Virus record (IMG/VR): IMGVR_UViG_3300042509_002617
Span: 1-56,793 of that record
Length of the DNA: 56,793 nt
DNA from: a virus
Direction: 5' to 3' (one strand)
Shown: in pieces, positions 1 to 56,793 of the stretch
Numbering within the stretch: position 1 is the first letter of the stretch
How the letters are laid out: each line of letters opens with the position of its first letter
Program-made: the position numbers and the translations under genes
The notes under the pieces: generated by a model
The model's input: the letters and a program-made list of their open reading frames with translations, nothing else
Database searches by the model: none
What the model was told of the DNA's origin: nothing

Positions 1-127
1 GCAGGCCGGTTTACCTGATCCTGTCCGACTACGGCAAAGGGATGTTTGATCGTGGTCTGTGGGCCCACTCGATCCGCGCGTCAGTCAAAGTCGTCGAGAG
101 CTTCGGGGACCCGCACCGGTCGCGGTC
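1..127. repeat. Terminal direct repeat, left copy
   Basis: Bases 1-127 are identical to 56667-56793. The kinase gene entering the right end continues in frame from base 128, so the two copies are one genomic segment seen twice. The length of 127 is a common assembler k-mer size, so this is most simply the overlap of a circular contig and not a physical terminal repeat. Confidence 0.95.
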
Positions 128-500
128 CTCGATGCGGGAGGCCTCTGAGTTGTTGGGCCGGTGCACGGTTCTGGCACAGGGGACGCAAGACCCATTGTGG
201 CACTCTGGCCTGAGCGATCGGAAGCTCATCAAACGCGGCCATAACGGCATGATGCTGTTCGACGATCTCGGTGCGTACGAATGGAGCCCGCAGCGATTCG
301 GCATGGACCCATCGACCGCGGTCGACACCTGCGGCTGTGGCGACATGGCAATCGCGGCTCTGGCGGTGGCTCGCTCCGAGGGCATGCGCTGGAACGACGC
401 CCTTAAGTTCGCGGTCGCGGCGGCGGCAGAGGAGGCCCTGGTCTGGGGTGCCGTGCCGGTGTCAAGGTCAGTTGTGAACGAGCGTCTGCGTCGGGGTTGA
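1..500 (+). CDS. PfkB-family sugar kinase, C-terminal part (HldE kinase-domain-like)
   Basis: This is the 3' part of the gene that starts at 56285; the joined product is 293 residues. The codon phase starts at base 3. The PfkB signature near the C terminus is at 324-344 and reads DTCGCGD, a variant of the usual DTxGAGD that carries the catalytic Asp and the anion hole. The family phosphorylates sugars using ATP in the cytoplasm. The nearby HldE-type nucleotidyltransferase gene suggests a heptose-7-phosphate kinase role; substrate identity is inferred. Ribokinase-like specificity for another sugar is the main alternative. Confidence 0.8.
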   Translation, partial: RPVYLILSDYGKGMFDRGLWAHSIRASVKVVESFGDPHRSRSSMREASELLGRCTVLAQGTQDPLWHSGLSDRKLIKRGHNGMMLFDDLGAYEWSPQRFGMDPSTAVDTCGCGDMAIAALAVARSEGMRWNDALKFAVAAAAEEALVWGAVPVSRSVVNERLRRG

Positions 501-533
501 CCCCGTGCCGGGATCGGGGAGGATTTGGGCCGA

Positions 534-1679
534 ATGGCCCATTCCCAGAGCCGCCTCCCGGAGACCTTCCAGTGGCCCCAATGTGGTGGTGGTTCGACGA
601 TGACGATTGGTACACGGATGACACGACGTCAGAGATCCAATGTCGGGTTTCAGTTGATTCGGGAGCTGCTCGACCGGCAGCCCGACTTGCCAAGCCGCGC
701 CGCAGCCCGCCGCCTGTACAAGCGAAATCCCGAGGTGTGGCCCAACCTAGAGGCGTGCCGTAGCATGCTGCGGTATTACCGGGGCACGAACGGGAAGAAA
801 ATGCGACGGGAGGTCCGGCAAAAGGTGGCCGACCGCCGCATGGAACAGACTCGCGAACGACGGCAGCCCAAGGAGGTGATCGAGACTCGGACATTCACGG
901 TCCCGTTGCCGACTCCCCACCTGCACGGGATCGACCGGGCCCCCATCCCATGCAACCAGCCGGGAATCTGGGGCATCATGAGCGACATCCACATCCCGTT
1001 CCATGATGCTTCCGCGCTCGAGACCGCCCTGAGTGAGATCGAGAAGGCCAGCCCGGTCGGCATCATCCTGCTGGGGGATGTGGCGGATTTCCACGCGATC
1101 AGCCGATGGGAGCACGACCCCAGGAACAGAGACTTCGAGGGGGAGCGGCAGGCGGTCGTTCAATTCCTGAAGCACCTGCGGGAGCGGTTTCCCACGCAGC
1201 GCATCGTCTACAAATTGGGCAACCACGAGGAAAGACTCGAGCGGTTCATGATGACCAAGGCCCCGGAGCTACTCGGCATGCAGTGCCTGCAATTCCGAGA
1301 GCTGGTCGAGGCGGATTCGTGCGGCATCGAGGTGGTCGGCGACCAGCGGCGGATTGCCCTCGGTCGGCTGACACTGATTCATGGGCACGAGTACCGGTTC
1401 GCGATCTCGAATCCCGTGGGGCCGGCGCGGGGGTTGTTCCTGAAATCCAACACCACCGCCATGTGCGGCCATTTCCACCAGACCAGCCAGTACTCGAAGC
1501 GGGCCCTGGACGACGTGCACCGTGCCTGCTGGTCCCTCGGGGCGTTGTGCCAGCTCGACCCCGAGTACCGGCCGATCAACGAATGGAACCACGGGTTCGC
1601 GATTGTGACGCTGGCGGCGAACGGATCGTTCGAGGTCAGCAACCGTCAACTGGATGAGCACGGGCGCAAGTACGCCTGA
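534..1679 (+). CDS. Calcineurin-like metallophosphoesterase
   Basis: A 381-residue protein. Visible metal-binding motifs in order are SDIH (about residue 150), LLGDVADF (about 181), GNHE (about 229), HGHE (about 283) and CGHFH (about 311), the full set for a binuclear metallophosphoesterase. The N-terminal 100 residues are basic and lack those motifs, possibly a nucleic-acid-binding region. The start chosen is ATG 534; TTG 525 and ATG 600 are alternatives, and a GGGGAGG tract lies at 515-521. It sits between the kinase and the nucleotidyltransferase, so it could supply the phosphatase step of a sugar-activation pathway, but a nucleotide or RNA phosphoesterase is equally possible. Confidence 0.82.
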   Translation: MAHSQSRLPETFQWPQCGGGSTMTIGTRMTRRQRSNVGFQLIRELLDRQPDLPSRAAARRLYKRNPEVWPNLEACRSMLRYYRGTNGKKMRREVRQKVADRRMEQTRERRQPKEVIETRTFTVPLPTPHLHGIDRAPIPCNQPGIWGIMSDIHIPFHDASALETALSEIEKASPVGIILLGDVADFHAISRWEHDPRNRDFEGERQAVVQFLKHLRERFPTQRIVYKLGNHEERLERFMMTKAPELLGMQCLQFRELVEADSCGIEVVGDQRRIALGRLTLIHGHEYRFAISNPVGPARGLFLKSNTTAMCGHFHQTSQYSKRALDDVHRACWSLGALCQLDPEYRPINEWNHGFAIVTLAANGSFEVSNRQLDEHGRKYA

Positions 1680-1688
1680 TTTTTTCGA

Positions 1689-1705
1689 CACTGGTTCAAC
1701 ACTGG
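1689..1705. promoter_or_regulatory. Operator-like direct repeats (CACTGG x2, 11-bp phase)
   Basis: CACTGG occurs at 1689-1694 and 1700-1705, exactly 11 bp apart, in the 34-base gap between the metallophosphoesterase and the next gene. The preceding TTTTTTCGACACTGGT matches the one at 13508-13523. It belongs to the half-site family found at other gene boundaries of this genome. Confidence 0.5.
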
Positions 1706-1713
1706 AGCAAGAC

Positions 1714-2415
1714 GTGACCAACATTCTGAGACGTGCCGATGCCATCGCGGGGGAGGATCGCGCCCGGGACTATGGCCACCCGAGGGACAACTTCCGGCGG
1801 ATCGCAGATCTGTGGAATGCGTACGTCAGCCACATGCCTGACGATCAGCCGGGGATCACCCCCGAAGACGTCGCGGCCATGATGATTCTCATGAAAATCG
1901 CACGGCAGCAGCACACCCCGAAGGATGACAACTTGGTCGACATCGCGGGGTACGTGAAGTGCTGGGACATGCTGGGGGACGATCCGCAGCCGGTCGACGC
2001 TCCCGGCCCGCTGGAGGTGCAGTCGCTTCGCATGCATGACGACGGGCAAGAGGCGCCCGACCCGGGGTTCTGGTATCTGGCCACGCCGTACCGGGCCTAC
2101 AAGGGGCTACGGGCGTCGGCGTTCACACAGGCCGCGCAGCAGGCCGCCATCTTGAGCGACTCCGGCATCTCGGTGTTCTCCCCGATCGTGCACAGCCACG
2201 TCATCGCCAGCCACACGGAACGACTTGTTGAGGAGTCCCCGGAGTGGATCGATCTCGACATGCCAATGGTTCGCGCAGCCCGGGGAGTGATCGTGTGCAT
2301 GCTGCCGGGCTGGGAACAATCGTCGGGGATCTACAGAGAATGCAACGAGGCGATCAAGCTGGGCAAGCCCGTCATCCACATGACCCCCGACACTATCCCC
2401 GAGGGCCTGAAGTGA
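1714..2415 (+). CDS. DUF6378-like / DUF1937-like two-domain protein
   Basis: A 233-residue protein with two recognisable parts. Residues 1-95 (containing RARDYGHPRDNFRRIADLW and KDDNLVDIAGY) resemble the phage DUF6378 family. Residues about 120-233 (WYLATPYRAY, VFSPIVHSH, MLPGWEQSSGIYRE, GKPVIHM) resemble DUF1937 / nucleoside 2-deoxyribosyltransferase-like folds. The start GTG 1714 is preferred because GGAG lies 8 bases upstream and this leaves the operator-like repeats intergenic; ATG 1654 would overlap the previous gene. A nucleotide-metabolism role is inferred from the second domain. The stop overlaps the next start (TGATG). Confidence 0.75.
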   Translation: MTNILRRADAIAGEDRARDYGHPRDNFRRIADLWNAYVSHMPDDQPGITPEDVAAMMILMKIARQQHTPKDDNLVDIAGYVKCWDMLGDDPQPVDAPGPLEVQSLRMHDDGQEAPDPGFWYLATPYRAYKGLRASAFTQAAQQAAILSDSGISVFSPIVHSHVIASHTERLVEESPEWIDLDMPMVRAARGVIVCMLPGWEQSSGIYRECNEAIKLGKPVIHMTPDTIPEGLK

Positions 2416-2900
2416 TGCAGACCCTGGACGAGCTGCGGGACCTGGTGCGGAGCTGGGATGGGAACTACCTCGCGCGAACCAATTTCACCAACGGCTGTTT
2501 CGACCTGCTGCACGTGGGGCACCTTCCTGTGCTCCGGGCCGGGTGCGAATGGGATGGGCGGATGGCCCGGGCGCGGCTGGTGGTCGCGATCGACAGCGAC
2601 CGGCGGTGTGCGTTCCTGAAGGGGTACGACCGTCCGATTATCCCGGCGGCCGAGCGGGCCGAGCTGCTGCTGTCGACTCGGTTCGTCTCGGCCGTCGTGC
2701 AGTTCGACTCGACCGAACAATTGCGGGAGATCCTGACGGTGGTCCGGCCCCATTTCGTGGTGCGGGGCCTCGGGGGGAAGCCTCCGCCCCAACCAGCTCC
2801 GTTCGGCGCGGAACTCGCCCGCCAGGTGCTCTGGGTCGAGACGCCGGACGTGCACACGAGCACGATTGTCGAGCGGATTCGGGCCTCGGGCGACCAGTAA
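2415..2900 (+). CDS. HldE/RfaE C-terminal-like nucleotidyltransferase (cytidylyltransferase superfamily)
   Basis: A 161-residue single-domain protein. It carries TNGCFDLLHVGH (about residues 25-36), the HxGH nucleotide-binding signature, and HTSTIVERI near the C terminus, equivalent to the ISSTxxI region of the family. HldE proteins join this domain to a PfkB kinase domain; here the kinase is a separate gene 1.9 kb upstream on the circle. The known reaction is transfer of AMP from ATP to heptose-1-phosphate giving ADP-heptose. A glycerol-phosphate or other sugar-phosphate substrate cannot be excluded. It overlaps the preceding gene by TGATG, implying translational coupling. Confidence 0.85.
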   Translation: MQTLDELRDLVRSWDGNYLARTNFTNGCFDLLHVGHLPVLRAGCEWDGRMARARLVVAIDSDRRCAFLKGYDRPIIPAAERAELLLSTRFVSAVVQFDSTEQLREILTVVRPHFVVRGLGGKPPPQPAPFGAELARQVLWVETPDVHTSTIVERIRASGDQ

Positions 2901-9129: not shown

Positions 9130-9164
9130 CTGCCGGAATGGTCCGGCTCAATGGAATGGACAGC

Positions 9165-9395: not shown

Positions 9396-9405
9396 CTCTG
9401 GCGAA

Positions 9406-9431
9406 GCCGCCACGGAGGGCGGCGTTTTTTT
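9406..9431 (+). terminator. Intrinsic terminator before csrA
   Basis: GCCGCC (9406-9411) pairs with GGCGGC (9418-9423) across a six-base loop, followed by G and seven T (9425-9431). It lies between the HTH gene and csrA. Confidence 0.85.
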
Positions 9432-9445
9432 GTGGAGGCGGTGCG

Positions 9446-9643
9446 ATGCTCGTTTTGAAACGGAAGCCCGGCGAAAAGATCCTGGTCGGCGAAATCGCGT
9501 TCGAGATCGTTGAGGTCCGGGGGAACAAGGTGCGGGTGGGGATCACAGCCCCCCGGGAACAGCAGATCCTGCGGGGCGAGCTGGTCACCGGCCCGCCCGC
9601 AGAAAATGCGACCAGTGTTGAAAACACTGGTTCCCGCTGTTGA
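9446..9643 (+). CDS. csrA: CsrA/RsmA-family RNA-binding regulator
   Basis: A 65-residue protein. MLVLKRKPGEKILVG, the middle strand VRVGITAP and REQQILRGEL match the dimeric beta-barrel CsrA fold. It keeps the N-terminal RNA-contact strand, and the Arg of VRVGITAPRE that contacts GGA sites is present. CsrA binds GGA motifs near ribosome-binding sites and changes translation or mRNA stability. Phage copies are uncommon. GGAGG precedes the ATG. The last dozen codons contain the perfect 21-bp operator at 9611, so coding and regulatory sequence overlap. Confidence 0.93.
   Translation: MLVLKRKPGEKILVGEIAFEIVEVRGNKVRVGITAPREQQILRGELVTGPPAENATSVENTGSRC
9611..9631. promoter_or_regulatory. Perfect 21-bp inverted-repeat operator
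   Basis: ACCAGTGTT-gaa-AACACTGGT, a perfect 9+9 inverted repeat and the best copy of the recurring site. It lies in the 3' end of csrA, 8 bases upstream of the -35 box at 9640. The same spacing is seen at 15641. Confidence 0.85.
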
Positions 9644-13505: not shown

Positions 13506-13515
13506 CTTTTTTCGA

Positions 13516-13543
13516 CACTGGTCCTACACTGGTGAAACACTGA
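13516..13543. promoter_or_regulatory. Operator-like triple direct repeat (11-bp phase)
   Basis: CACTGG (13516), CACTGG (13527) and CACTGA (13538) recur at exact 11-bp intervals, about one helical turn. The array is in the gap after the recombination operon and is preceded by the same TTTTTTCGACACTGGT as at 1684. Compare the CACTGT triplet at 45558. Confidence 0.55.
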
Positions 13544-19683: not shown

Positions 19684-19934
19684 CCGCGCCGCAAATCATC
19701 AGCCCTGACCAGTGGGTGGTCACCGGCGGCGACGCAAACTACCGCCGGACTTGGTCGGTCACCGTCCGGGCCAGCACGCTGGAGAATGCCGAGCGGGTCG
19801 CCTGGCAAACTCCGGGACGCCCGGCGTGGGTCTCGATCCATACTCTGCGGGCCGCCCTGGCGACCGTCCGCAACGATCCTGTGCTGCGCGACATGCTCCG
19901 CAGCGGTTACGCGAAAGAGGTGCTCCATGGGTGA
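19680..19934 (+). CDS. Hypothetical protein (84 aa)
   Basis: An 84-residue protein with a beta-rich N-terminal half (YRRTWSVTVRASTLENAERV) and helical C-terminal half. It overlaps the next gene by 8 bases. No family recognised. Confidence 0.5.
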   Translation: MTAPQIISPDQWVVTGGDANYRRTWSVTVRASTLENAERVAWQTPGRPAWVSIHTLRAALATVRNDPVLRDMLRSGYAKEVLHG

Positions 19935-20676
19935 GTCGACGAAAATCTCTTGGACCGATCACACGTTCAACCCGTGGATGGGTTGTGAGCGTGTGAGCGA
20001 GGGCTGCCGCAACTGTTACGCGGCGACGTTCGTCACGGGTCGGATGGGACTCCAAGTGTGGGGCAAGCAGGCTCCCCGGCAGGTCACGAAAACGCCGTGG
20101 CAGCAGGTCCGCACCTGGAACCGCAAGGCGGCCGAAAGCGGCGTTCGCCGCAAGGTGTTCTGCGCCAGCCTCTGCGACATTTTCGAGGATCACCCCACCG
20201 CCGACGCGACCCGGCCCCGCGTGTGGGACATGATCCGGGAATGCACGGCGCTCGACTGGCAGATCCTGACCAAGCGCAGCCACCGGATCGCGAGCTGTCT
20301 GCCCAGCGACTGGGGCGACGGCTGGCCCCATGTGTGGCTGGGGGTCTCGGTCGAGGACATGCGGGTGGCCTGCCGGGTCGACGACCTGCGGAGCATACCG
20401 GCTGCCGTGCGGTTCATCTCGTACGAGCCGGCACTGGGGTCGTTGCAAGGTCTGGACCTGACTGGCATCGATTGGGTGATCTACGGCGGGGAGAGCGGCC
20501 CAGGGTATCGCCCGGATAGTGAAGTGTGGGCCTGGCAAATGTACCTCAACTGCCGAGCGTCTGGGGCCGCATTTTTTTACAAACAATCGTCCGGACCCAA
20601 ACCCGGAACGGGAATCAAACTGCGGGGCCACGTGATTCAGGAGTTCCCATTGCCTCGGCCGGAGGTGACGCGATGA
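19927..20676 (+). CDS. DUF5131 (phage Gp37/Gp68) family protein
   Basis: A 249-residue protein. TKISWTDHTFNPWMGCERVS, the cysteine triad CERVSEGCRNCYA (CxxxxxxCxxC), WQILTKRSHRI, WLGVSVED and DWVIYGGESGP are the hallmarks of the phage Gp37/Gp68 family DUF5131. The cysteine cluster and barrel-like strands recall radical-SAM proteins, but the chemistry is not known to me. It is usually found in phage accessory operons, as here. Confidence 0.88.
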   Translation: MGESTKISWTDHTFNPWMGCERVSEGCRNCYAATFVTGRMGLQVWGKQAPRQVTKTPWQQVRTWNRKAAESGVRRKVFCASLCDIFEDHPTADATRPRVWDMIRECTALDWQILTKRSHRIASCLPSDWGDGWPHVWLGVSVEDMRVACRVDDLRSIPAAVRFISYEPALGSLQGLDLTGIDWVIYGGESGPGYRPDSEVWAWQMYLNCRASGAAFFYKQSSGPKPGTGIKLRGHVIQEFPLPRPEVTR

Positions 20677-20969: not shown

Positions 20970-21070
20970 TCGAATGCACGTTGAGAGAATTCGTCATTGT
21001 GGCAACGGCGTTTGTGTTGTGGGTCGTTTTGCCAGCGATTGCCCGATGGGCGGAAGGCGGTGACGAATGA
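20966..21070 (+). CDS. Small single-helix membrane protein (34 aa)
   Basis: A 34-residue frame from GTG 20966 with one hydrophobic helix (FVIVATAFVLWVVLPAIA). Start and stop both overlap neighbours (GTGA and ATGA), which supports a real coupled gene in spite of its size. Function unknown. Confidence 0.45.
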   Translation: MIECTLREFVIVATAFVLWVVLPAIARWAEGGDE

Positions 21071-22539
21071 CACTGAAAGCAGCCGATCTGTTCTGTGGTG
21101 CCGGCGGGACTTCCTGCGGTGCCGAGTCAACCGGGGCCGCGCGAGTTGCGTTTGCCCTGAACCACTGGTCGACTGCGGTCGAGACCCACAGCAGAAACTT
21201 CCCCCACGCCAAGCACGTGAACTCGCGGCTGGACCAGACCAGCCCGGGGGAGTGCGGGAAGATCGATCTCCTGTTCGCCTCCCCGGAATGCACACATCAC
21301 AGCCGAGCCCGAGGCGGTCGCCCCACCAGCGATCAACAGCGGTCTGGGGCGTGGGACGTGATGAAGTGGATTGAGCATCACCGGCCTTCGTGGGTGGTGG
21401 TCGAGAACGTCGTGGAGTTCGAGCAGTGGGGGCCGGTCGATGACCGAGGCATCCCGCTGAAGTCTCGCCGGGGGGCGTTCTTCCATGCGTGGATCGCTGC
21501 CATCGAGGCGGCCGGGTACGTGGTCGACTGGCGACACCTGAACGCGGCGGACTTTGGCGCGGCGACCAGTCGCAACCGTTTGTTTGTGGTGGCGAGGAAA
21601 GGGCGGAGAGCCCCGGTGTTCCCGGAGCCCACCCGCCGCAAGGGAACTGGTCGGACACTCCCAGGCATGGGCCTTCCAAGCTGGCGGACGGCTGCCGAGG
21701 TGATCGATTGGAGCCTGCCGTGTCCGTCGATCTTCAGCCGCAAGCGACCTCTGGCGGACAAGACCATTGCCCGGATTGAGGCTGGCCTGCGGCGATTCGT
21801 GGGGCCGTTCGTGGCCAGTTGGACGAACACCGAGAGCAGCTCGAACTACGAGTACTCCCCAGATCGCCCCCTGCCGACAGTGTTGACGAAGGCCCACATG
21901 GGGCTGGCCGTGCCGTACACGGTCGAGGTGAACCACGGCGGCAATGATTCCCGGACAGCTACGCTCGATGCTCCGATTGGAACGGCGAGCTGCAAGAACG
22001 GCCGGGGGCTGGCCCTGCCGTACATCGTGCCGAACTTCGGCGAACGTGACGGCCAGACTCCACGGACCCACGGGGTCGACGTTCCAGCGCCGGCCATCAC
22101 GGGCCACGGGGCGGGGCAACTGGCGGTGCCGTACATGGTTCGGTCAGCGCACGGCGACAATGGCGGCGATCGCATCCATGAGTTGAAAGCCGCGTTGCCA
22201 ACTGTGACGACATCGAAAGATTTCGCTTTGGCCGTACCGTTCCTGACCCACTTCTATGGCAACTCCGGGGCGTCGCCCATTTCCGATCCGGTCGACACCA
22301 TCACCACAGTTGACCGGCACTCACTCGCCGTCGCCAGCCTGGTGAAGACCATGCACGAACTGCACGTCGTCGACGTGGGGTTCCGGATGTTGCAGAACCA
22401 CGAGCTGGCGGCCGCTCAGGGGTTCCCAGGCGAGTATGTGTTCTGCGGCAGCAAGGCCGACATCACCCGCCAGATCGGCAACTCGGTCTCCCCGCCGGTC
22501 GCGGCGGCGATCACCCGAGCAATTGCGGGGGTGGCATGA
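21067..22539 (+). CDS. C5-cytosine DNA methyltransferase
   Basis: A 490-residue Dcm-type enzyme. Motif I is DLFCGAGG (7-14), motif IV is ASPECTHHS (about 71-79), where PEC replaces the usual PCQ with the catalytic Cys kept in a phage-type variant, motif VI is VVENVVEF (about 112), and late motifs include AAQGFPGEY and QIGNSVSPPVA. The recognition region (about 260-410) contains three or four similar LAVPY-type units. It methylates cytosine C5, probably to protect phage DNA from host restriction. No partner endonuclease is seen. Confidence 0.93.
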   Translation: MTLKAADLFCGAGGTSCGAESTGAARVAFALNHWSTAVETHSRNFPHAKHVNSRLDQTSPGECGKIDLLFASPECTHHSRARGGRPTSDQQRSGAWDVMKWIEHHRPSWVVVENVVEFEQWGPVDDRGIPLKSRRGAFFHAWIAAIEAAGYVVDWRHLNAADFGAATSRNRLFVVARKGRRAPVFPEPTRRKGTGRTLPGMGLPSWRTAAEVIDWSLPCPSIFSRKRPLADKTIARIEAGLRRFVGPFVASWTNTESSSNYEYSPDRPLPTVLTKAHMGLAVPYTVEVNHGGNDSRTATLDAPIGTASCKNGRGLALPYIVPNFGERDGQTPRTHGVDVPAPAITGHGAGQLAVPYMVRSAHGDNGGDRIHELKAALPTVTTSKDFALAVPFLTHFYGNSGASPISDPVDTITTVDRHSLAVASLVKTMHELHVVDVGFRMLQNHELAAAQGFPGEYVFCGSKADITRQIGNSVSPPVAAAITRAIAGVA

Positions 22540-25292: not shown

Positions 25293-25312
25293 CCAGTGTT
25301 GTCGTCACTGGT
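25292..25312. promoter_or_regulatory. 21-bp inverted-repeat operator
   Basis: ACCAGTGTT-gtc-GTCACTGGT matches the recurring consensus at 16 of 18 arm positions. It starts at the end of the 25104 gene. A possible -35 (TTGTCG) runs through the centre with TGCAAA 18 bases on, and a terminator follows. Confidence 0.7.
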
Positions 25313-25331
25313 TAAAAACTGTTGCAAAAGA

Positions 25332-47391: not shown

Positions 47392-47781
47392 ATGCCAGGC
47401 ACCTCGACAGTCAGCTTCCAGATCGGTGGGACCACGGTCACGGTCAATGGCCCGCCTGGTCCGACCGATGTGTCCGCGTTGCCGCAGCACACGGTGGACC
47501 GCGCCGCGGATCACACGCTCTGGTCGTACCAGCACACCACCACCAAGCTCTGGCTGTGGACAATCGGCTTGCGTGACCTGACCGCGGCCCAGAAGTCAGC
47601 CCTCGAGAACTTTTTCCTCGATACGGCGGTCGGGCCGAAGAACCCGTTCACGTACACCCACACCGACGGGACGGCTTACGCAAACTGCCGATTCGTGCAG
47701 CCTCAACTGCAGTTTCAGCGGGTCAATGAGGCGGTTTGGGATGTGCAGATCCAGATTCAATCCCCGACGCAGGTGGCGTGA
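47392..47781 (+). CDS. Tail protein between chaperone and tape measure
   Basis: A 129-residue beta-rich protein (STVSFQIGGTTVTVNGPPGP, RFVQPQLQFQRVNEAVWDVQ). It ends with a strand pattern reminiscent of phage minor tail or tube-like proteins. It overlaps the tape-measure start by one base. Exact role unknown. Confidence 0.6.
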   Translation: MPGTSTVSFQIGGTTVTVNGPPGPTDVSALPQHTVDRAADHTLWSYQHTTTKLWLWTIGLRDLTAAQKSALENFFLDTAVGPKNPFTYTHTDGTAYANCRFVQPQLQFQRVNEAVWDVQIQIQSPTQVA

Positions 47782-50651
47782 TGGGCCAGACGATTCATGA
47801 GCTTCGCGGCGTCATCGGGGGCGACGCCTCCGGGTGGCTGCGTGCGGTCAAGCAGTCGATCAACGCGGGGCAGGATTTCCTATCGTCGTGGGGTCGGGCG
47901 GCGTCCGAGGTGGTCAGCCTTTCGACGAAAGTCGCGGTCGGGGTCACCGGGATGGCGACGGCGATCGGCACGGCCGTCGCGGTCACCGGCACCAAGTTCA
48001 ACGCGCTGCAGCAGAACGCCACGATCGCATTCTCGACACTGCTGCGCGACGGGACGAAGGCCAAGGCGTTCCTGCAAGAGCTGCAGAAGTTTGCAGCGGA
48101 AACCCCCTTCTCGTTCGGCGGGCTGATCAAGAACTCTCAGTTCCTGCTCGCGACTGGCACCAGCCTGGCGGAGATCATCCCCACCCTGCGGGTTCTCGGC
48201 GACACGATGGCGGGGTTGGGGAAGGGCGAGGAGGAGCTGAAGCTCGTCGCCACGGCCCTGTCGCAGATCCGGGGGAGTGCCCAGCTCTCCGCGGCGGACA
48301 TGGCCCAGCTGACCAATCAGGGGATCCCCGCCTGGAAGATGCTGGCCGACGCGATCGGGAAGACCGTTGGCGAGACTCGCAAGCTGTCGGAGCAGGGAGC
48401 GTTCGGCGGGGAGCAGGCGTTCCAGATCCTCATGCAGGGGATGCAGCAGCGATTTGGCGGCGGCATGGCGGCGGCTGGGGGCTCGTTCGACCAGCTGCTC
48501 TCCAACCTGAAAGACACGTTCGACATCCGGGCAGCGGAGGTCACCAAGCCGCTGTTCGACGCTCTGATCCGGGTGTTCCAGCAGTTCTCCGAGTTTCTCG
48601 GCTCGCCCCAGTTCTCGGGGGTCATTCAAGAGCTGACGGGGCAGTTTGCTCGGGCTGGGTCCGCGATCGAGCGATGGCTCGGGGGCAACCGGCAGCAGAT
48701 CGTGGAGGGGCTGACGTCGGCTCTGCGGGGGATGGCCGAGGGGGTGACCAACCTCATCCAGTACGTGCAGGAGGCCGGGCCCAGCATGGTGCGCTTCGCC
48801 CAGGTGCTGGCGGATGTGGCGGGGGCGGTCGGTCGGTTCGCCAGCAAACACCCCGAGGTGTTGGCGGCCCTGCTGCTATTTCAGGGGGCCTCGATGCTCG
48901 GCGTGGTCTCGACGCTGGGATCTCTCGGAAATGCTCTGGTCTCGACCATCAGCCTGTTTGTGAAACTGGTCCCGGCCATTGCGGGGGCGAGCACGGCCAC
49001 CGCCTCATTCACCGCACTGCTGGGGCCTGGTATTGCTCTGGCGATTGCCGGGGGGTTCTTCGCGATCCTGATCAACGCGGCGAGAGAACTCCGGGCTGAG
49101 TTCGACGAGTTCATCAAGAGCACCGAGAAGGTCCGCAATCTGGGGCTGGAGGGCGTGCGGGCGGGGATGGATCGGTCCGGCGGTATTCAGGACCCTCAAG
49201 CACGGCGGAACGCTCTGCGGGTCGATCTGGAGGCTGCCAAGCAGGAGTTGGAAAACGCCCAACGGGACATGGAGGCGAGGCGACTGGAGCGGGAGAAGAT
49301 TGGCCGGGACATGTCGGTCGGCGACAAGATCTCGGCGTTCCTGCCGGAATCGATCGGTGGGTTCGATGCCAGGACCGAGGCGGGCAAGGAGGCGGAGCGG
49401 GCCCAGGCACGCTGGGAACGAGCGTCCGCAGTCATCAGTGAGATCGAGGCGAAGATCAAGGAGACCGAGGCCCAGATCAAATCCGGGGTGGCCGGCGCCG
49501 GGGCCATGGGTGGCGGGGCGGCAATGCCTCCCGACGTGGCCGCGACCGGCCCGATCCAGAAGCAGGCGGTCGACGCTGTCAAGGCCTGGAACGACATGGT
49601 CGGCGACGTGACCACCAAGATGGAGTCGATGGCGATGAAGCTGGCCGACATGGGCCTGTACATGGACCCCATGCAGATCCAGATGGTCGCCGACTCGATG
49701 CAGCGGCTGGGGGATGCGTTCCTCAACGGCGAGATCACCGAGGCCCAGTTCAACCAGCTCACCAGCGGGCTCCAGCGGGTGGCCGATCAGGCGGGCAACT
49801 TCTCGGAGAGGATCCAGACGGCGGCGGAGAACGGAAAGATCTCTGCCGACCAGCTCGGGGTGCTGAACACTTCGCTCTCGCAGTTGCTCGGCCAGTACCA
49901 GCAGGGGGCGATCACATCCGATGGGTTTGCCCGTGGGCTGCAGCAACTCAACGCCCAGATGGAGGCGGGGGCCGCACAGGCGGAGCGGGAAGCCGCGGCG
50001 AAAGAGCGGGCGCGGCTGATGTCCGGGCAGTTCACCCAGGATGAGTTCCGCACGGCGTTCGAGGACAAGCTCATCGCGTTCCAGCGGGCGCGCATGCAGC
50101 AGATGGTCGACATGCAGTTCCTGCAGTGGCAGCGAATGAACGGCTTTATGACCGACACGGGCAACAACTTCGGCCGCCTCAACGGCATGATGGGCGGTTT
50201 CGGGACTCAGGTGCAGCGGGCGACCGGATTCCTGCGGGGAATGGGTGGCGACGGGGCCAACGCGATCAACTGGAACCAGATCGCGGGGGCGTTCAACAGC
50301 CCCCAGGCCCAGCGGGACATGCTGTTCAACGAACTGCAGATGCTCTTGCAGTACTTCCGGCCGAACACCAGCCCCTACTCGATGGGGTTGGATCCAGAGC
50401 GGGCGGCCCGATATCAGGGACGCATCGACGAGATCCAGTCCATCCTCAACGCCCCTCCCCCGCCCCCGATGTTCACGGGCATCAGCGGTGACCAGATCAT
50501 CGGCGACCCGGGGTTGCAGTCGCAATCGGCCCGCGCGGGGGGCTCCATCAACGTGAACCTGCCCAACATCTCGCGGATCACCAACAGCGACATCCGGCAG
50601 ATCACCGACGCCCTCACGAACGAACTGGCCCGCCAAGGGAGACGGCTGTAA
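47781..50651 (+). CDS. Tape measure protein
   Basis: A 956-residue protein. The N-terminal domain (GQTIHELRGVIGGDASGWLR, FLQELQKFAAETPFSFGGLI, LGDTMAGLGKGEEELKLVATAL, MLADAIGKTVGETRKLSEQG) matches the conserved tape-measure N-terminal region. Hydrophobic helices lie around residues 370-435, and long coiled-coils continue to about 770. Length sets tail length: at roughly 1.5 angstrom per residue it predicts a tail near 140 nm. It is ejected with DNA and may form a membrane channel. Confidence 0.93.
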   Translation: MGQTIHELRGVIGGDASGWLRAVKQSINAGQDFLSSWGRAASEVVSLSTKVAVGVTGMATAIGTAVAVTGTKFNALQQNATIAFSTLLRDGTKAKAFLQELQKFAAETPFSFGGLIKNSQFLLATGTSLAEIIPTLRVLGDTMAGLGKGEEELKLVATALSQIRGSAQLSAADMAQLTNQGIPAWKMLADAIGKTVGETRKLSEQGAFGGEQAFQILMQGMQQRFGGGMAAAGGSFDQLLSNLKDTFDIRAAEVTKPLFDALIRVFQQFSEFLGSPQFSGVIQELTGQFARAGSAIERWLGGNRQQIVEGLTSALRGMAEGVTNLIQYVQEAGPSMVRFAQVLADVAGAVGRFASKHPEVLAALLLFQGASMLGVVSTLGSLGNALVSTISLFVKLVPAIAGASTATASFTALLGPGIALAIAGGFFAILINAARELRAEFDEFIKSTEKVRNLGLEGVRAGMDRSGGIQDPQARRNALRVDLEAAKQELENAQRDMEARRLEREKIGRDMSVGDKISAFLPESIGGFDARTEAGKEAERAQARWERASAVISEIEAKIKETEAQIKSGVAGAGAMGGGAAMPPDVAATGPIQKQAVDAVKAWNDMVGDVTTKMESMAMKLADMGLYMDPMQIQMVADSMQRLGDAFLNGEITEAQFNQLTSGLQRVADQAGNFSERIQTAAENGKISADQLGVLNTSLSQLLGQYQQGAITSDGFARGLQQLNAQMEAGAAQAEREAAAKERARLMSGQFTQDEFRTAFEDKLIAFQRARMQQMVDMQFLQWQRMNGFMTDTGNNFGRLNGMMGGFGTQVQRATGFLRGMGGDGANAINWNQIAGAFNSPQAQRDMLFNELQMLLQYFRPNTSPYSMGLDPERAARYQGRIDEIQSILNAPPPPPMFTGISGDQIIGDPGLQSQSARAGGSINVNLPNISRITNSDIRQITDALTNELARQGRRL

Positions 50652-53234
50652 ATGGCTCGGACACTGACGGCAGCCGCGACCACCCAGAAGGACCGCACGA
50701 ACGGGGCGCACCCGGTGTACGTGCTCCAGATCGACTGGGGCGGGGCCACCGGGACCAAGTACTACGCGGGCGAGGCGTTGACCATCGGCACCGGCGGCTC
50801 TGCCATCACCACCGAGGGCCGGGTGATGGACTGGGGGGCCATCCAGATCGGGGCCGACCCCGGGCGGGCTGGTGGACACGGGCAGGTCAATGTCACGCTG
50901 ACCGATGCCGACTTGGTGCTGAAACCGCTGATCGAGACGAAGCCCGGGCCGATCAACAAAAAGTGTTGGATCTGGCTGTACTTTCAGGGGACGACGTGGC
51001 CCACGGATCGCGTCGGCGTCTTCGGCGGTGTGATCGACGCCCCCAGCGAATGGGACGACTCGACCGCCCAATGGCGGCTGACCCTGCGGGGGCTGGAGGC
51101 CCTGTACAACCGGCAGATCGGGCGACTGATCGACCGCGATGTGTTCCCGGATGTGATCTGCGACGAATGCGAGGGGGAGATCATCCCCATCGTTTACGGG
51201 AACCCTGTCCGGAGGGTGCCAAGCTGCATCATCGAGCGGCCGGGCCAGTCGAACCTGCTGTCGTACTTCGGGCCGTTCGACGACTCGCTGTACATCGAGA
51301 ACACCGCAGCAGACGACCGGCATACCACGACCGGCACCAGAACACTCGTGATTGGCTACCCGGGAAACACGGTGCGCGTCACTGGGACATGGGACTCGGT
51401 CACACCCAACAAGTTCAACATCTCGACGCGGAACGATTGGCAGGCCAGCGGCACGATCTCCACGCTGCTGGGGGACGATGGGGTCTTGTACCTCATGATC
51501 CCGAAGGCGGACATCACGGCACCAGATGCCTCACGCTGCGGCTACCCGATCTCCCTATACGTGGGGGGCACGTGGTACATCTATGTCATCTCGTTCTGGA
51601 CGGTCCGCGGTGACGACATCGCGGTGCTGTGGCAGCAGGGGACCGGGGCCAATGTCGGGACCACGTACAGGATCGGCCGATATGCTGGCCAGATGCCCCA
51701 CTGGCAGGCCGGAACCCCGGTGTACGAGGTCGACACCTGGAAGTGGGCGGTCAACTTCCTGCCGTCGCAGTCCGTCGACCTGGTCGAGTGCAAGACGAAG
51801 TATCAGGTGCCAGGGGGAGGGACGGCGGAAGGGTACGTGCAGCTCGGCAGCACGTACTACTCGGTGAACCTCAACGACAAAGCGTACAACACGTCACTCG
51901 GCCGTCTGTCGACCGATCCGGGCATCACCACCATTACGATGACTGCCCCGCCGATTGATGCGGGGGTGGATGCCACGCGGCTGCTGGTGACACTCAAGGG
52001 GATCACCGACGACAACACCCCGACCGGCACAGTGCTGAATGATCCCGCCGACGTGATCAAAAACCTGCTGGGGAACTCGTTTCTCGGCAAGGTCCCCGCA
52101 GGAGAGATCGACTCCGCGAGCTTCACGGCGGCTGCCTCGGCGATCACGCAAAACCTCGAGCTGGCGATCACCAGTCAGCAGCGGTTGACCGACCTGTGCG
52201 GAGAGCTGGCGTTCCAAGCCGGGGCGGTGATGTTCTGGGACGGGGGGCAGGCCCGGATCAAGAAGCTGGCCCACACCCTCAGCTCCGGGGATTCGCAATA
52301 CACGTTCGACGTCTCGAAGTACGCGGCACGGACACTGCGAGTGCGAGAGCAGGGGCTGACCAACACCCCGACACAAGTCACCGGGAAGTTCCGCACCAGC
52401 CTGGTGGCGCCCGAGTCGAAGCTGGTCCGGCGGTGCGACGATGCCATCACGGAGTTCGGGTGGCGAGACAGAACGCTCGACATGTGGGCCCACCAAGACC
52501 CGGTCGACGTCGCGGCGATCATCGAGTTCTGGCTGAAGTTCGATCTGCAGATCAACCAGACCATCCAGTTCGATACGTTCCTGAACGGCGTCCACCTGCA
52601 GCCGGGCGACACGGTCACGATCAACGTGGTCCACGCCTCGGGGACACCGGTCAACAACGTGCTGGGCCGGGTGAAGTCGCTGCGGCATCAGCCGGGCAGC
52701 TCCCAGGGACGTGGGGACCGGATCCAAGTCGAGTGCGAGGTCAAGCTCTACGACTGGACGGTCACCGCGGTCACCCCGACGACACGCAACTGCAACCCCT
52801 CGACCGGGGTGCCGGACCAGCGGCTCGGCCCGGGGACGGCGGTCACCTCAGGGAGCGGGTGGGTCTACATCCCGGGGCGGGGGGCCGTTCCACTGCCGCA
52901 GTTCCGCAGTTCGGTCAGCTTCCCGGGGTCTGGGTCTGGCTCTGGCTCAGGGAGCGGGTCGGGGTCTGGTTCAGGCAGCGCCAGCGGCAGCGGGACCGGG
53001 TCGGGGTCGTCCGGCTCTGGTCTGGTCTACCCGTTTCTCGCCGGGGCCGGGACGGGCGTCTGGAGCAAGGGCACCACCCGGACGGTCAGCCCAATCAACA
53101 CCTCTGGTTCGGGTCTCGGTCTGGGATCGGTCGTTGCCTACAACGGCCACAAGAACGTCCCATCGTCTGGCACAGTGATCGTGTACCAGATCGCCGGGGG
53201 CGAGGTGGTTGCCATGGAATTCTCCTGCACGTGA
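50652..53234 (+). CDS. Tail-tip / hub protein with Gly-Ser repeat linker
   Basis: An 860-residue protein directly after the tape measure, the distal-tail/hub position. The first 700 residues are mainly beta with hub-like segments (VTLTDADLVLKPLIETKPGP, LRGLEALYNRQIGRLIDRD). A (GS)n-rich linker of about 35 residues (about 760-795) joins a small C-terminal beta domain that could bind a receptor. The Ser/Thr-rich linker is a plausible O-glycosylation target. The domain calls are approximate. Confidence 0.72.
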   Translation: MARTLTAAATTQKDRTNGAHPVYVLQIDWGGATGTKYYAGEALTIGTGGSAITTEGRVMDWGAIQIGADPGRAGGHGQVNVTLTDADLVLKPLIETKPGPINKKCWIWLYFQGTTWPTDRVGVFGGVIDAPSEWDDSTAQWRLTLRGLEALYNRQIGRLIDRDVFPDVICDECEGEIIPIVYGNPVRRVPSCIIERPGQSNLLSYFGPFDDSLYIENTAADDRHTTTGTRTLVIGYPGNTVRVTGTWDSVTPNKFNISTRNDWQASGTISTLLGDDGVLYLMIPKADITAPDASRCGYPISLYVGGTWYIYVISFWTVRGDDIAVLWQQGTGANVGTTYRIGRYAGQMPHWQAGTPVYEVDTWKWAVNFLPSQSVDLVECKTKYQVPGGGTAEGYVQLGSTYYSVNLNDKAYNTSLGRLSTDPGITTITMTAPPIDAGVDATRLLVTLKGITDDNTPTGTVLNDPADVIKNLLGNSFLGKVPAGEIDSASFTAAASAITQNLELAITSQQRLTDLCGELAFQAGAVMFWDGGQARIKKLAHTLSSGDSQYTFDVSKYAARTLRVREQGLTNTPTQVTGKFRTSLVAPESKLVRRCDDAITEFGWRDRTLDMWAHQDPVDVAAIIEFWLKFDLQINQTIQFDTFLNGVHLQPGDTVTINVVHASGTPVNNVLGRVKSLRHQPGSSQGRGDRIQVECEVKLYDWTVTAVTPTTRNCNPSTGVPDQRLGPGTAVTSGSGWVYIPGRGAVPLPQFRSSVSFPGSGSGSGSGSGSGSGSGSASGSGTGSGSSGSGLVYPFLAGAGTGVWSKGTTRTVSPINTSGSGLGLGSVVAYNGHKNVPSSGTVIVYQIAGGEVVAMEFSCT

Positions 53235-53244
53235 GACCGAGCCA

Positions 53245-54237
53245 ATGTGCCTGTGTTTTTACGCACTCAAGGGGACGCGGGAATCGTCGTCGCCAGATGC
53301 CCTGTGGGCCTACGATCCCGGAAAGGGCTCCACATCGAGCAGTCGTTGGGCACAACATGCGATCGGCCCTGCCCCGTCTGGGCAAAGCTGCATCGGGCTG
53401 CGCGATGTCAGCAATACTCTGGGGCGGGTGTTCGATCGCGACGGGTACATCACCAGCACTTTCTCGCTGACAAACTTGGCAACCGCCGATCCTGTGTCGG
53501 CGTGGAACGGTACGGACACCGCGTGGTTCCTGGCGACTGCCACCGGAGGCACGACCAACTGGTATGCGTTCAATCTGTCCGGCACACAGCTCAGCTCTTC
53601 CCGCTACGACTCAGGGTCACGGTTCCGGGCGGCGTGCAATTCGTCCGGCGACCTGATCGCCTACAACGCATCGACCTCGCCACAACGCATGGAGAGGCGG
53701 GCCCGCGGAGGCACGGTGTCGGCGTCCTCCTCCTCGGTGCCGAGTAGCGTGCTGTGCGTCGATGCGTCAGACAACATTTTGACGGCACAGGCATCGTCGC
53801 TGGTCAAATACAACGGATCATTCACACAACAGTGGTCAACGAGCTATTCGCAGTTTGGCGCATCGGTTTTGGCGGTTGTGGCCGACTCATCATCCAATGC
53901 GTATGTTCTGTATGCACAATCACCGCCGGGAACAGCGGTGAAGATCGAAAAGTACAACTCGTCTGGAACGTCTCAGTCCGTCACGACAATAACCACCTTC
54001 AACGGACTGTATGATCAATTTGTTGATTTTTGGTGCGATGGCACAAACCTGTACCTGGCGTTCTTCAGGAATGTTGGGTTGGGAACAATGGGCCTGACGG
54101 TCATCAAGTACAATGGATCGGTCTCAGAGGTGTGGGCCAGAAACCCGTGGTACGAAGACGGCACGGCCAATCGCACAGCAAAAAGCGTGCGTTCAGACGG
54201 CACGGTCTTGACGTTGGCCGGGGTTCGTGGTCAGTGA
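53245..54237 (+). CDS. Putative tail fibre / receptor-binding protein
   Basis: A 330-residue protein of repeated short strands with propeller-like units (DALWAYDPG, DTAWFLATATGGTTNWYAFN, NILTAQASSLVKYNGSFTQQ, IEKYNSSGTSQSVTT, VIKYNGSVSEVW). It is very rich in Ser and Thr. The last 400 bases are less GC-rich than most of the genome, common in exchanged receptor-binding genes. It is the last tail gene before the glycosyltransferase. Confidence 0.65.
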   Translation: MCLCFYALKGTRESSSPDALWAYDPGKGSTSSSRWAQHAIGPAPSGQSCIGLRDVSNTLGRVFDRDGYITSTFSLTNLATADPVSAWNGTDTAWFLATATGGTTNWYAFNLSGTQLSSSRYDSGSRFRAACNSSGDLIAYNASTSPQRMERRARGGTVSASSSSVPSSVLCVDASDNILTAQASSLVKYNGSFTQQWSTSYSQFGASVLAVVADSSSNAYVLYAQSPPGTAVKIEKYNSSGTSQSVTTITTFNGLYDQFVDFWCDGTNLYLAFFRNVGLGTMGLTVIKYNGSVSEVWARNPWYEDGTANRTAKSVRSDGTVLTLAGVRGQ

Positions 54238-54434
54238 TCGAAGACCCCCCCGTCGACTGCCTCCACCGCCTGGAACCGCGAGGCACCATCGAGTGCAGCT
54301 ACTGCGGCCTGCGCGGGCAGGAGGCCCCACTTTACGGGTGCAGCGTCTTCGGGCTCTGCACGGTTGGAAAACGGCACGCCAACGTGCGGGCCTGCATTGC
54401 GTGTGAACGTCGCGAGGAACCCCCGGATGCCTGA
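54234..54434 (+). CDS. Small zinc-finger-like protein (66 aa)
   Basis: A 66-residue protein from GTG 54234 overlapping the fibre stop (GTGA). It has three Cys groups (ECSYCGLRG, YGCSVFGLCTV, ACIACERRE), a zinc-binding pattern. It overlaps the glycosyltransferase start by 8 bases, so it is likely co-expressed. A similar short Cys-rich protein (56091) lies further along the same operon. Confidence 0.55.
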   Translation: MIEDPPVDCLHRLEPRGTIECSYCGLRGQEAPLYGCSVFGLCTVGKRHANVRACIACERREEPPDA

Positions 54435-55362
54435 GACCATCGTCCTGAACGCCGACCTGCACGGGTTCGGTGATGCCTGTATCACAGCGGTCATCGCGGA
54501 GAACTCCAAGGACCGGCCCGTCCGGCTGATCCACCGGGCAACCGGCGAGATGCGGGTGTTCCTGGAAATGCTCGGCCAGGAGGTGGTGGACCACGACCCG
54601 GAGCAATGTGCGGACACATTCTTGCCGTACCACACCCACGAGGTGCAGCTTGAGCGCGGCGAGGTCCCCAGGGTGCTGTCGCGGGCGCGAGCTCTCGGAA
54701 TCGATCTGTCCGACCTGACCCCAGAGACCATCCGGATGCCGACCGTCACCGTGGGGGAGGAGGCGACGATCTGGGCCAAGCGGGTGTGTGATGAAATGCG
54801 GGCGTTCGGGCACGCGAAAGCTGTCGCGCTGTGGCCCCAGACGTGCTACCAGTCGCGGGAGTGGCCGACGGGCCACTGGCACGATCTGGCGTGGGGCCTC
54901 CGGTCTCACGGTATCGGCTCGCGGTTCTTCCTCGGCACCAACGAAGAGCGGTGGCACAACACCCCGGGGTTTGTGTTCGGGATGGGCTGGGAGAAGTGGG
55001 CGGCGATGATGCTGGAGGCTGATCTCAATGTCGCGATCAGCTCCGGCCCAGCCAGCCTTGCGGCAATTGCACGGGCGGGTACAATTGTGCTCGAAGGGCC
55101 AACGAAGCCGACGATCTGGTGGCACGCCCCCCAGATCGAGACCATGCAGGTCGGGACTGACCGCGTGAGTTGTGTCGGGTGTCACTTTGGAAGCCCCTTT
55201 CGGAGTGCCTGCGATTTTGGATGTTTCGCGCTCGCGGCACTGACCCCGGATCTGGTTTTGTCGCGAGTCATACAGAGACTCGATGTCAGAGGAATTGAGC
55301 GTGTCCAGTTGCACCACTGGACCACACGGGATGTTGGTGCGCTCCGCCTCCCCGTGGCGTGA
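54427..55362 (+). CDS. GT9/heptosyltransferase-like glycosyltransferase
   Basis: A 311-residue GT-B type protein. AVALWPQTCYQSREWPTGHW, LEADLNVAISSGPASLAAIA and GTIVLEGPTKP correspond to the nucleotide-sugar binding C-terminal domain of ADP-heptose:LPS heptosyltransferases (GT9). A four-Cys cluster, CxxC (249, 252) and CxxxC (262, 266), near the C terminus recalls the metal finger of autotransporter protein heptosyltransferases. It sits directly behind tail genes and ahead of a kinase and nucleotidyltransferase of the HldE type. The acceptor (virion protein or host glycan) is unknown. Confidence 0.8.
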   Translation: MPETIVLNADLHGFGDACITAVIAENSKDRPVRLIHRATGEMRVFLEMLGQEVVDHDPEQCADTFLPYHTHEVQLERGEVPRVLSRARALGIDLSDLTPETIRMPTVTVGEEATIWAKRVCDEMRAFGHAKAVALWPQTCYQSREWPTGHWHDLAWGLRSHGIGSRFFLGTNEERWHNTPGFVFGMGWEKWAAMMLEADLNVAISSGPASLAAIARAGTIVLEGPTKPTIWWHAPQIETMQVGTDRVSCVGCHFGSPFRSACDFGCFALAALTPDLVLSRVIQRLDVRGIERVQLHHWTTRDVGALRLPVA

Positions 55363-56104
55363 GCAGGACGAGAAGGTAATTCGCGAGGTCATTGACCAAG
55401 ACTGCTACGACCTCGCGTCGTTGGCGGACATGGTCAATCAAGACGACGATGTCGCACCCACAATCGTCGACGTGGGAGCCCACATCGGATCGTTTGCGAA
55501 AGCCTGCGAACTGCAATTCAGCAGGTTACGTCGAAGGGTGGTCTACCACGGTTTCGAACTGAACGCCAAGAACGTCCCGTTGCTGGTGAGGAACGTCGCT
55601 GCCAAGAACTTCGCCATGTTCGACGCACGGGCCTTCCACGCGGCGATTGAGCAGGGCCGGACCAGTGACGAGTACTGGTTCATGGACTCGATCCTGAAAA
55701 ATGGCGACCGGGCGACAGCCACCGGGGCCAGCCAGCTCCGTCCGAAGGGGGCCCGGCCCGTGATCAGCGACCACGCGGTGAGCGCCGCCCCTGCGGAGCA
55801 GATCCCGGTGATCGACATGATGACCGTGATCGACTGCATCGTTCGGGGTGAGATCTCGATTCTCAAACTGGATTGCGAGGGGGCTGAATTCCGCCTCCTC
55901 GACGCGCCGTGCAGTTGGCTCGATTCGGTCTCGGTGATCGTCGGCGAGTACCACGACCGGGAGCGGTGGGAGGAGTTCCTCAACAACCATTCCCGGCTGG
56001 CGATGTGGGACTATCGCGAGGTCAGCCGGCGCGAGGACAAACCCATCGGGATCTTCCACCTGATCAACCCCAACAAAGTGCAGGTGGGCCATGAGAACGA
56101 ATAG
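55283..56104 (+). CDS. FkbM-family methyltransferase
   Basis: A 273-residue SAM-dependent methyltransferase. Motif I is IVDVGAHIGSF (about 61-71), and ISILKLDCEGAEFRLL (about 191-206) is the FkbM signature. The family O-methylates sugars and other small groups, often in glycan loci. It overlaps the glycosyltransferase by 80 bases with ATG 55283; ATG 55331 is a shorter alternative. It may methylate the transferred sugar. Confidence 0.88.
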   Translation: MSEELSVSSCTTGPHGMLVRSASPWREQDEKVIREVIDQDCYDLASLADMVNQDDDVAPTIVDVGAHIGSFAKACELQFSRLRRRVVYHGFELNAKNVPLLVRNVAAKNFAMFDARAFHAAIEQGRTSDEYWFMDSILKNGDRATATGASQLRPKGARPVISDHAVSAAPAEQIPVIDMMTVIDCIVRGEISILKLDCEGAEFRLLDAPCSWLDSVSVIVGEYHDRERWEEFLNNHSRLAMWDYREVSRREDKPIGIFHLINPNKVQVGHENE

Positions 56105-56288
56105 CCAACCGAATCCACATCGACATCTGTCGTACTGGGCCGCCATGCTGCTGGCCGCCAGCATTCACCAGCGAGACCCCCGCGAGCTGAAGCGGCACAA
56201 CGTCGAGACGTGCTATCAGTGCGGGGCCAGGATCGGCCGGGGCCGCGCCGGGCGGAAGTGCCGCAAATGCCGGGAGGTGCAGCAGTGA
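56091..56288 (+). CDS. Small zinc-ribbon protein (65 aa)
   Basis: A 65-residue basic protein with CYQCGARIGRGRAGRKCRKC, two CxxC pairs of a zinc ribbon. It overlaps the methyltransferase end and, by GTGA, the kinase start. Role in the glycan operon unknown. Confidence 0.55.
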   Translation: MRTNSQPNPHRHLSYWAAMLLAASIHQRDPRELKRHNVETCYQCGARIGRGRAGRKCRKCREVQQ

Positions 56289-56793
56289 GCCAACCTCTGA
56301 TTGTGGTGGTCGGGGAAACGATCCTCGACATGGACTACGAACTGCAGAAGCCGCCCGAGACCTCGCCGGATGGCTTCCCGGTGTACCCAGTCGGCTACTA
56401 TGCGACCCGCAAGAATGTCGGGGGAGCGGCGGCCGTGGCGGGCATGGCGAAGGCCTTCGGGGCCGATGTGCGACTCGTCACCCAGTACGACCCGGCGTAT
56501 GTGCCAGATCCTGCGGGCATCACACAAGGGCTGTGGTGGCGCGGCCCAGTGTGCGAGAAGCGGCGGTTCATCCACGACGGAAAGGTGGTGTTCCGTCTGG
56601 ATACCGATGTGCGGATCACGAGACTTCCGTTGTCGGTGCTTGAGGCGATCCGCGAGGAGTGCAACGGCAGGCCGGTTTACCTGATCCTGTCCGACTACGG
56701 CAAAGGGATGTTTGATCGTGGTCTGTGGGCCCACTCGATCCGCGCGTCAGTCAAAGTCGTCGAGAGCTTCGGGGACCCGCACCGGTCGCGGTC
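56285..56793 (+). CDS. PfkB-family sugar kinase, N-terminal part (HldE kinase-domain-like)
   Basis: The 5' part of the gene that continues at base 128 of the window. The GTG start overlaps the previous stop. IVVVGETILDMDYEL and YYATRKNVGGAAAVAGMAKAFG match the first strand and the GGA(A)NVA substrate box of HldE/RfaE-type PfkB kinases. The full 293-residue protein is close to the kinase domain length of HldE. Proposed reaction: heptose-7-phosphate plus ATP to heptose-1,7-bisphosphate. Confidence 0.8.
   Translation, partial: MSQPLIVVVGETILDMDYELQKPPETSPDGFPVYPVGYYATRKNVGGAAAVAGMAKAFGADVRLVTQYDPAYVPDPAGITQGLWWRGPVCEKRRFIHDGKVVFRLDTDVRITRLPLSVLEAIREECNGRPVYLILSDYGKGMFDRGLWAHSIRASVKVVESFGDPHRSR
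56667..56793. repeat. Terminal direct repeat, right copy
   Basis: Exact copy of bases 1-127. It marks the join of the circular sequence inside the PfkB kinase gene. Confidence 0.95.

Follow-up and report, generated by a model that had tools for sequence, protein, structure and literature searches.

Genes for an HldA-like kinase, an HldC-like nucleotidyltransferase, a GT9-like transferase and an FkbM methyltransferase are conserved together behind the tail-tip genes of a tailed phage

Heptose-activation genes are frequent in viral metagenomes, where they have mostly been classed as lipopolysaccharide (LPS) “auxiliary metabolic genes”. In bacteria, the split arrangement of the kinase HldA and the nucleotidyltransferase HldC is normal (PMC5387315). 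Among cyanophages, GC304, 305, 307 and 308 co-occur with others in P-SSM2, S-SM2 and S-SSM7 (Sullivan et al., 2010; PMC3037559), and it was stated at that time that whether the cyanophage heptose genes are functional or stuffer DNA was not known (PMC3037559). In P-SSM2 and S-SSM7 the nucleotidyltransferase T4-GC304 adjoins the kinase GC305, and the HAD phosphatase GC306 and the HldD epimerase GC308 are also present. A role in host LPS is doubtful for cyanophages, since cyanobacterial LPS has been reported to be without heptose (PMC4390846). On the protein side, the GT9-like enzyme TibC heptosylates serines (PMC4358343), and mycobacteriophage glycosyltransferases decorate capsid and tail protein, as Freeman (2023) is cited in PMC12619734. 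Here, the IMG/VR virus record IMGVR_UViG_3300042509_002617 is described, a stretch of 56,793 bp analysed over its whole length (the window), in which the original prediction had placed a split ADP-heptose-type activation and transfer module. A split module is not in itself novel in phages, because it was reported in 2010 (PMC3037559), is common in the viral loci examined and is normal in bacteria.

It was found that the HldA-like kinase, the HldC-like nucleotidyltransferase, the GT9-like transferase and the FkbM methyltransferase of the window constitute a conserved set located directly after the tail-tip genes, a result that sequence, fold and synteny support jointly. Because its first 127 bases are identical to its last 127, the window represents a circular contig, the unit of which measures 56,666 bp with 64% GC. 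An independent IMG/VR contig from another sample (L002) matches unit positions 46285-58393 across the junction with 100% identity. As this contig reads through the junction, the kinase is a real uninterrupted gene, found as one open reading frame (ORF) of 293 amino acids (aa) in a single frame at L002:10001-10879, likewise with 100% identity. Pfam and NCBIfam matches, profiles, fold and L002 together uphold the predicted order around the junction, namely GT9-like transferase, FkbM, kinase, metallophosphoesterase and nucleotidyltransferase. Most genes of the region overlap adjacent ones in an operon-like manner, and kinase and nucleotidyltransferase are spaced by 1.9 kb. The features are as follows.

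54427..55362, + strand: GT9-like (heptosyltransferase-type, GT-B) glycosyltransferase, 311 aa
55283..56104, + strand: FkbM-family methyltransferase, 273 aa; its start overlaps the GT9 gene
56091..56288, + strand: 65-aa ORF with a CxxC...CxxC zinc-ribbon pattern, overlapping the genes on both sides
56285..56793, + strand: residues 1-169 of the HldA-like PfkB kinase, which runs on past the junction to the window start
3..500, + strand: HldA-like PfkB kinase, second part, with GCGD and catalytic Asp242 (window 1-127 repeats the window end)
525..1679, + strand: calcineurin-like metallophosphoesterase (phrog_221, 139.9 bits), judged outside the cassette
1654..2415, + strand: DUF6378 + DUF1937 (nucleoside 2-deoxyribosyltransferase-like) protein, judged outside the cassette
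2415..2900, + strand: stand-alone HldC/HldE-C-like nucleotidyltransferase, 161 aa
50652..53234, + strand: candidate acceptor, a tail protein of the tail-tip type with 860 aa, directly after the tape measure gene, with a weak PF13550 Phage-tail_3 match
52929..53021, + strand: Ser/Thr-Gly tract in the tail protein, residues 760-790
53245-54237: 330-aa fibre-like protein, between the 860-aa tail protein and the GT9-like gene
47736-50651: tape measure gene
5296-6435: integrase

On the evidence of profiles and a predicted fold, HldA is the member of the PfkB kinases to which the kinase is closest. Its best NCBIfam model is TIGR02198, heptose-7-P kinase, with 62.1 bits (the hexose kinase model gave 35.7 and the ribokinase model 23.8), and PF00294 is matched at 40-42 bits; with TIGR02198 the kinase of the relative scored 124.6 bits and cyanophage kinases 112-148 bits. 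By using a profile of 67 phage kinases, HldA (PDB 4e84) was retrieved at 3.5e-61, the next protein being a ribokinase at 3.6e-20. For the AlphaFold2 (AF2) model, built from an alignment without five rows from the named-phage collection (predicted template modelling score, pTM, 0.87), the top seven Foldseek matches were HldA (E 4e-20 to 7e-18), followed by ribokinase at 8e-15, with TM-scores alike for the two despite the gap in E-values. Single-sequence searching of the PDB with phmmer gave weak ribokinase C-terminal matches first, and for this reason the assignment needed family profile and fold together; similarly, tblastn of the named phages with the kinase returned no homologue, while profile searches did detect some. 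The motifs KxR...RxD, SDYxKG and G(A/C)GD are retained (K92, R94, R104, D106, S136-G141 and G239-D242). The HldE-like character originally proposed is thus borne out, HldA ranking first by profile and in the structure comparison that had been put forward as a check, and the protein is HldA-like rather than ribokinase-like. The condition that had been named as refuting, a clear resemblance to ribokinase or glycerol-phosphate enzymes, thus does not tell against the original proposal.

The nucleotidyltransferase is, by its sequence, HldC-like and not of the glycerol-phosphate type. TIGR02199, the C-terminal domain of HldE, was its best model with 73.5 bits, in comparison with 17.2 for the glycerol-3-phosphate cytidylyltransferase model TIGR01518, in agreement with the single-domain HldE-type enzyme predicted earlier. 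It carries HxGH and KGxxRP-type motifs (NGCFDLLHVGH and LKGYDRPI), matches phrog_7878 at 63.8 bits, and has 5x9q as its best single-domain PDB match.

The transferase is confirmed as GT9-like with a GT-B fold by profile comparison and a predicted model. Taken alone, the protein reached 18.1 bits with PF01075, under the cut-off of 22; a five-sequence GT9 profile retrieved WaaC at 3.6e-7 and WaaF at 0.001, and the homologue in locus L213 (32% identity) scored 44.8 bits, above the Pfam cut-off. Its AF2 model (pTM 0.76) matched WaaC, WaaF, a Veillonella GT9 and TibC in Foldseek, the highest TM-score among the listed matches being that of TibC, 0.54. The methyltransferase passes both of its cut-offs, with 42.4 bits for TIGR01444 (cut-off 37.7) and 29.6 for PF05050 (cut-off 22.7).

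The order GT9-FkbM-kinase-nucleotidyltransferase is not due to chance, because it is repeated in two related contigs, L174 and L175, with protein identities of 31-64%; in both, the kinase and nucleotidyltransferase genes overlap. G001, a near-complete relative of 56,260 bp, is colinear with the window over most of its length, and identities in G001 and L175 are 63-64% for GT9, 39% for FkbM, 31% for the kinase and 51% for the nucleotidyltransferase. Transfer and methylation are tied to activation, since a GT9-methyltransferase fusion in L213 and an FkbM protein fused to an extra domain in L203 each stand beside an HldC+HldA pair.

The two fusions (L203:8649-9995 and L213:7920-9998) have a common extra domain with the motif SGPxxSGNRLMAxILVRSGC, P-loop or sulfotransferase-like by eye, for which a further glycan-modifying step is possible. 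Across 158 distinct viral nucleotidyltransferase loci, 63 had fused HldE, 85 the split form (70 adjacent) and 10 no kinase seen, counts that cover the top 80 hits of the pattern scans and do not represent population frequencies. The 595-kb phage LR756511 encodes a complete fused HldE (L008:8972-10390), matched along the entire model with 239 bits, as well as four epimerase-family proteins. The 5.5-kb record MT838225 (L007, “Bacteriophage sp.”, unverified) holds a canonical fused HldE and may be bacterial rather than phage.

With respect to the acceptor, attention is drawn to the 860-aa tail protein, which is 62-86% identical in relatives. Its Ser/Thr-Gly tract has identical placement in all four members of the lineage (the window, L174, L175 and L176), its serines are encoded by mixed TCN and AGC codons, and Ser and Thr are swapped between relatives; the tract pattern was matched in 2 of 238 other loci. 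In the tail region of L185, an unrelated phage, a protein with a long stretch rich in serine precedes genes for GT9 and an HldC-like protein (165.9 bits), after which come an epimerase-family protein, another GT9, ORFs resembling methyltransferases and an HldA-like kinase (143.4 bits).

The explanation that we give somewhat better than an even chance, taken as a whole, is that the cassette is a glycan-making set by which a host sugar is activated, transferred and O-methylated, the acceptor probably being the tract of the tail protein. The host would provide D-glycero-D-manno-heptose 7-phosphate or a close relative, plus the phosphatase; the HldA-like kinase would phosphorylate the sugar at C1, and the HldC-like nucleotidyltransferase would then produce the nucleoside diphosphate sugar. 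The GT9-like enzyme would transfer this sugar to its acceptor, and FkbM would O-methylate the product. By analogy with the TibC-type GT9, which acts on serines, the most likely acceptor would be the hydroxyls of the Ser/Thr-Gly tract in the adjacent tail protein. The comparative sequence evidence leans, without proof, towards glycosylation of the tail protein over modification of the host surface or of DNA. The narrower proposal, in which the phage activates a heptose-type sugar, O-glycosylates its own tail-tip Ser/Thr-Gly tract via the GT9-like enzyme and then O-methylates it, is more tentative and falls short of an even chance.

In favour of the tail protein, Ser/Thr-rich tracts were present in 4 of 12 GT9-bearing loci and in 0 of 142 others (154 distinct loci; Fisher 2e-5, exploratory). 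Several observations weigh against this explanation. The p-value just given is not to be taken at face value, because the threshold was fixed after inspection of the data and three of the four positives come from one lineage, the four tract-bearing loci representing two lineages. No such tract occurs in L213 or L203, and Ser/Gly tracts may be mere linkers. Scans of genome contigs with profiles of the GT9 and tail-tip alignments, aimed at a host via a prophage, returned no relatives. The family scores all lie far under the equivalog cut-offs: that of TIGR02198, 345 bits, is missed by the window, relative and cyanophage kinases, and the nucleotidyltransferase, which aligns with TIGR02199 up to position 103 of 144, lies under the 181.5 bits required. 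Its C-terminal sugar-site segment is altered, with RGLGG and TST for KGGDY and STT, and the KGGDY/STT segment is lost in the window and L174 proteins alike. In the GT9-like enzyme, SSGxxS stands where WaaC has DTGxxH, and REWP where WaaC has KHWP, with Arg for the donor-site Lys. The window kinase carries GxxD (G188/D191) in place of NxxE, and Glu25 in place of the near-invariant Arg of RxSPE, each in 1 of 62 sequences, so that its activity is not assured; NxxE is present in the L174 kinase. The sugar is best called heptose-like, and because the kinase, the nucleotidyltransferase and the GT9-like enzyme all depart from canonical enzymes at conserved sites, we go no further than to infer ADP-heptose as the donor.

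These departures also feed the strongest alternative, which we hold rather unlikely: that kinase and nucleotidyltransferase activate some other polyol or sugar phosphate, and that the GT9-like enzyme uses that donor. The altered sugar-site segments of nucleotidyltransferase and GT9 and the lost substrate-side Arg of the kinase would fit such a substrate, as would the PDB matches of the L174 nucleotidyltransferase, for which ethanolamine-phosphate cytidylyltransferase (two domains) reached 55 bits and HldC 41. However, it is to the heptose pathway that the best curated families for kinase and nucleotidyltransferase, and the best fold matches for kinase and GT9, point.

Less probable again is that the cassette places a methylated heptose-like sugar on a glycan of the host envelope, be it LPS, capsule or S-layer, for instance to exclude other phages during a prophage state. 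GT9 enzymes mostly act on the LPS core, serotype conversion is a classical role of phage glycosyltransferases, and the window does encode an integrase. Serotype conversion has also been proposed for rfaE-bearing pelagimyophages (PMC7029224). Yet none of the scanned proteins was recognised as an O-antigen flippase, a polymerase or a membrane glycosyltransferase, the genes have tail genes on one side and early genes on the other in both phages, and cyanophages have similar modules although their hosts’ LPS is the one reported without heptose (PMC4390846).

Addition of the sugar to modified bases of virion DNA, as a means of evading restriction, appears very improbable: phage glycosyltransferases often target DNA, and a DNA methyltransferase (21067-22539) and ThyX are encoded, but a search for a PF00303-type (thymidylate-synthase-family) hydroxymethylase, the kind of enzyme that would provide a base hydroxyl for glycosylation, found none, the tail-side placement is kept in the relative, and we know of no GT9 enzyme acting as a DNA glucosyltransferase.

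The full model of the original prediction, in which the metallophosphoesterase replaces GmhB as heptose bisphosphate phosphatase, has next to no probability in our estimation, and the protein was rejected as a GmhB substitute: its gene sits between those of kinase and nucleotidyltransferase, but it is a common phage protein (967 named phage records have a relative, and mycobacteriophages account for 844 of these), is found neither in near-complete G001 and L175 nor in any of the other heptose-type viral loci examined, and has a relative in phage P8625 that adjoins a nucleotide kinase. The organisms that carry it and those that carry the nucleotidyltransferase form nearly disjoint sets. By its sequence and distribution it is an unrelated phage gene lying between the two; L213 has a dissimilar calcineurin-like ORF about 0.9 kb past its kinase. 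Similarly, the DUF6378/DUF1937 gene is missing from G001 and has no counterpart between kinase and nucleotidyltransferase in L174 and L175.

Consequently, the idea that the phage carries most of an activation-to-transfer chain is supported for kinase, nucleotidyltransferase and GT9, which are conserved together, and is not supported for the metallophosphoesterase. GmhA (SIS), an HldD-type epimerase and a histidinol-phosphatase/GmhB-type HAD protein were searched for in the window and not found, the epimerase search having worked in P-SSM2, and TIGR01656 had no match in the window or its relatives; the host would therefore have to supply these steps, as had been predicted for the heptose-phosphate and epimerase. 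In P-SSM2, no SIS domain was matched, and PSSM2_311 (T4-GC306, L012:11095-11439), annotated “phosphoheptose isomerase”, has its match in capsule phosphatases of the HAD type (TIGR01689) and is the probable source of the GmhB-type step. Its homologues were found in 47 of 85 split loci versus 1 of 63 fused ones.

The surrounding genome is that of a tailed phage, with tyrosine integrase, terminase, portal, major capsid, neck proteins and tape measure all recognised. Two items had been omitted from the earlier description, the DUF6378+DUF1937 gene (1654-2415) and the 65-aa CxxC ORF (56091-56288); the latter has a weak DksA-like PHROG match (E 0.026), and L174 has another small ORF here. The repeat TTCGACACTGGTTCAACACTGG occurs at 1684-1705 and 13511-13532, with a weaker copy at 25297-25330 and none expected by chance, and may serve the phage as a promoter or operator; the copy at 1684-1705, at the border of the phosphoesterase and DUF6378 genes, could mark the beginning of a unit of its own to which the nucleotidyltransferase belongs. 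Elsewhere, residues 134-180 of a 198-aa protein (9047-9643) form a CsrA RNA-binding domain (56 bits) that is kept in G001, and a DUF5131 protein (19786-20676) matches phrog_2045 at 220.9 bits.

If the phage does O-glycosylate and O-methylate its own tail protein in this way, autotransporter heptosylation would have a counterpart among phages, and the unexplained “LPS genes” that many aquatic phages carry might be accounted for in general. With activation, transfer by GT9 and methylation linked directly to a tail protein that has a Ser/Thr-Gly tract, the cassette offers a small testable system for the destination of the sugar.

In comparison with the known systems, the cyanomyovirus clusters of P-SSM2 and S-SSM7 share stand-alone HldC-like and HldA-like proteins with the window, near tail fibre genes in P-SSM2, but they have an HldD epimerase and a HAD phosphatase, which the window has not, and do not show its GT9/FkbM order. 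Bacterial HldA and HldC (for example of Burkholderia; PDB 4e84 and 5x9q) have the same split layout, and by sequence and fold HldA is what the kinase family matches best, whereas the window kinase is about 21% identical to bacterial HldA, without NxxE and the RxSPE Arg, and the C-terminal part of the nucleotidyltransferase has diverged from HldC. With WaaC, WaaF and TibC, the window GT9 has in common the GT-B fold, the GFGD Asp at the catalytic-base position, the WP motif and the GPT loop; it differs in overall identity (12-14%), in Lys to Arg and DTGxxH to SSGxxS, and in lacking the N-terminal beta-barrel of TibC. A C-terminal CxxC...CxxxC cluster is present in the window enzyme, in a region that models poorly, and TibC has a four-Cys cluster with other spacing. 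Virion glycosylation in mycobacteriophages, as far as Freeman (2023) is cited, concerns other phages and other enzymes. What may be new here is the placement of GT9, HldC and HldA genes after a Ser/Thr-Gly- or Ser-rich tail protein, in the lineage of the window and in L185.

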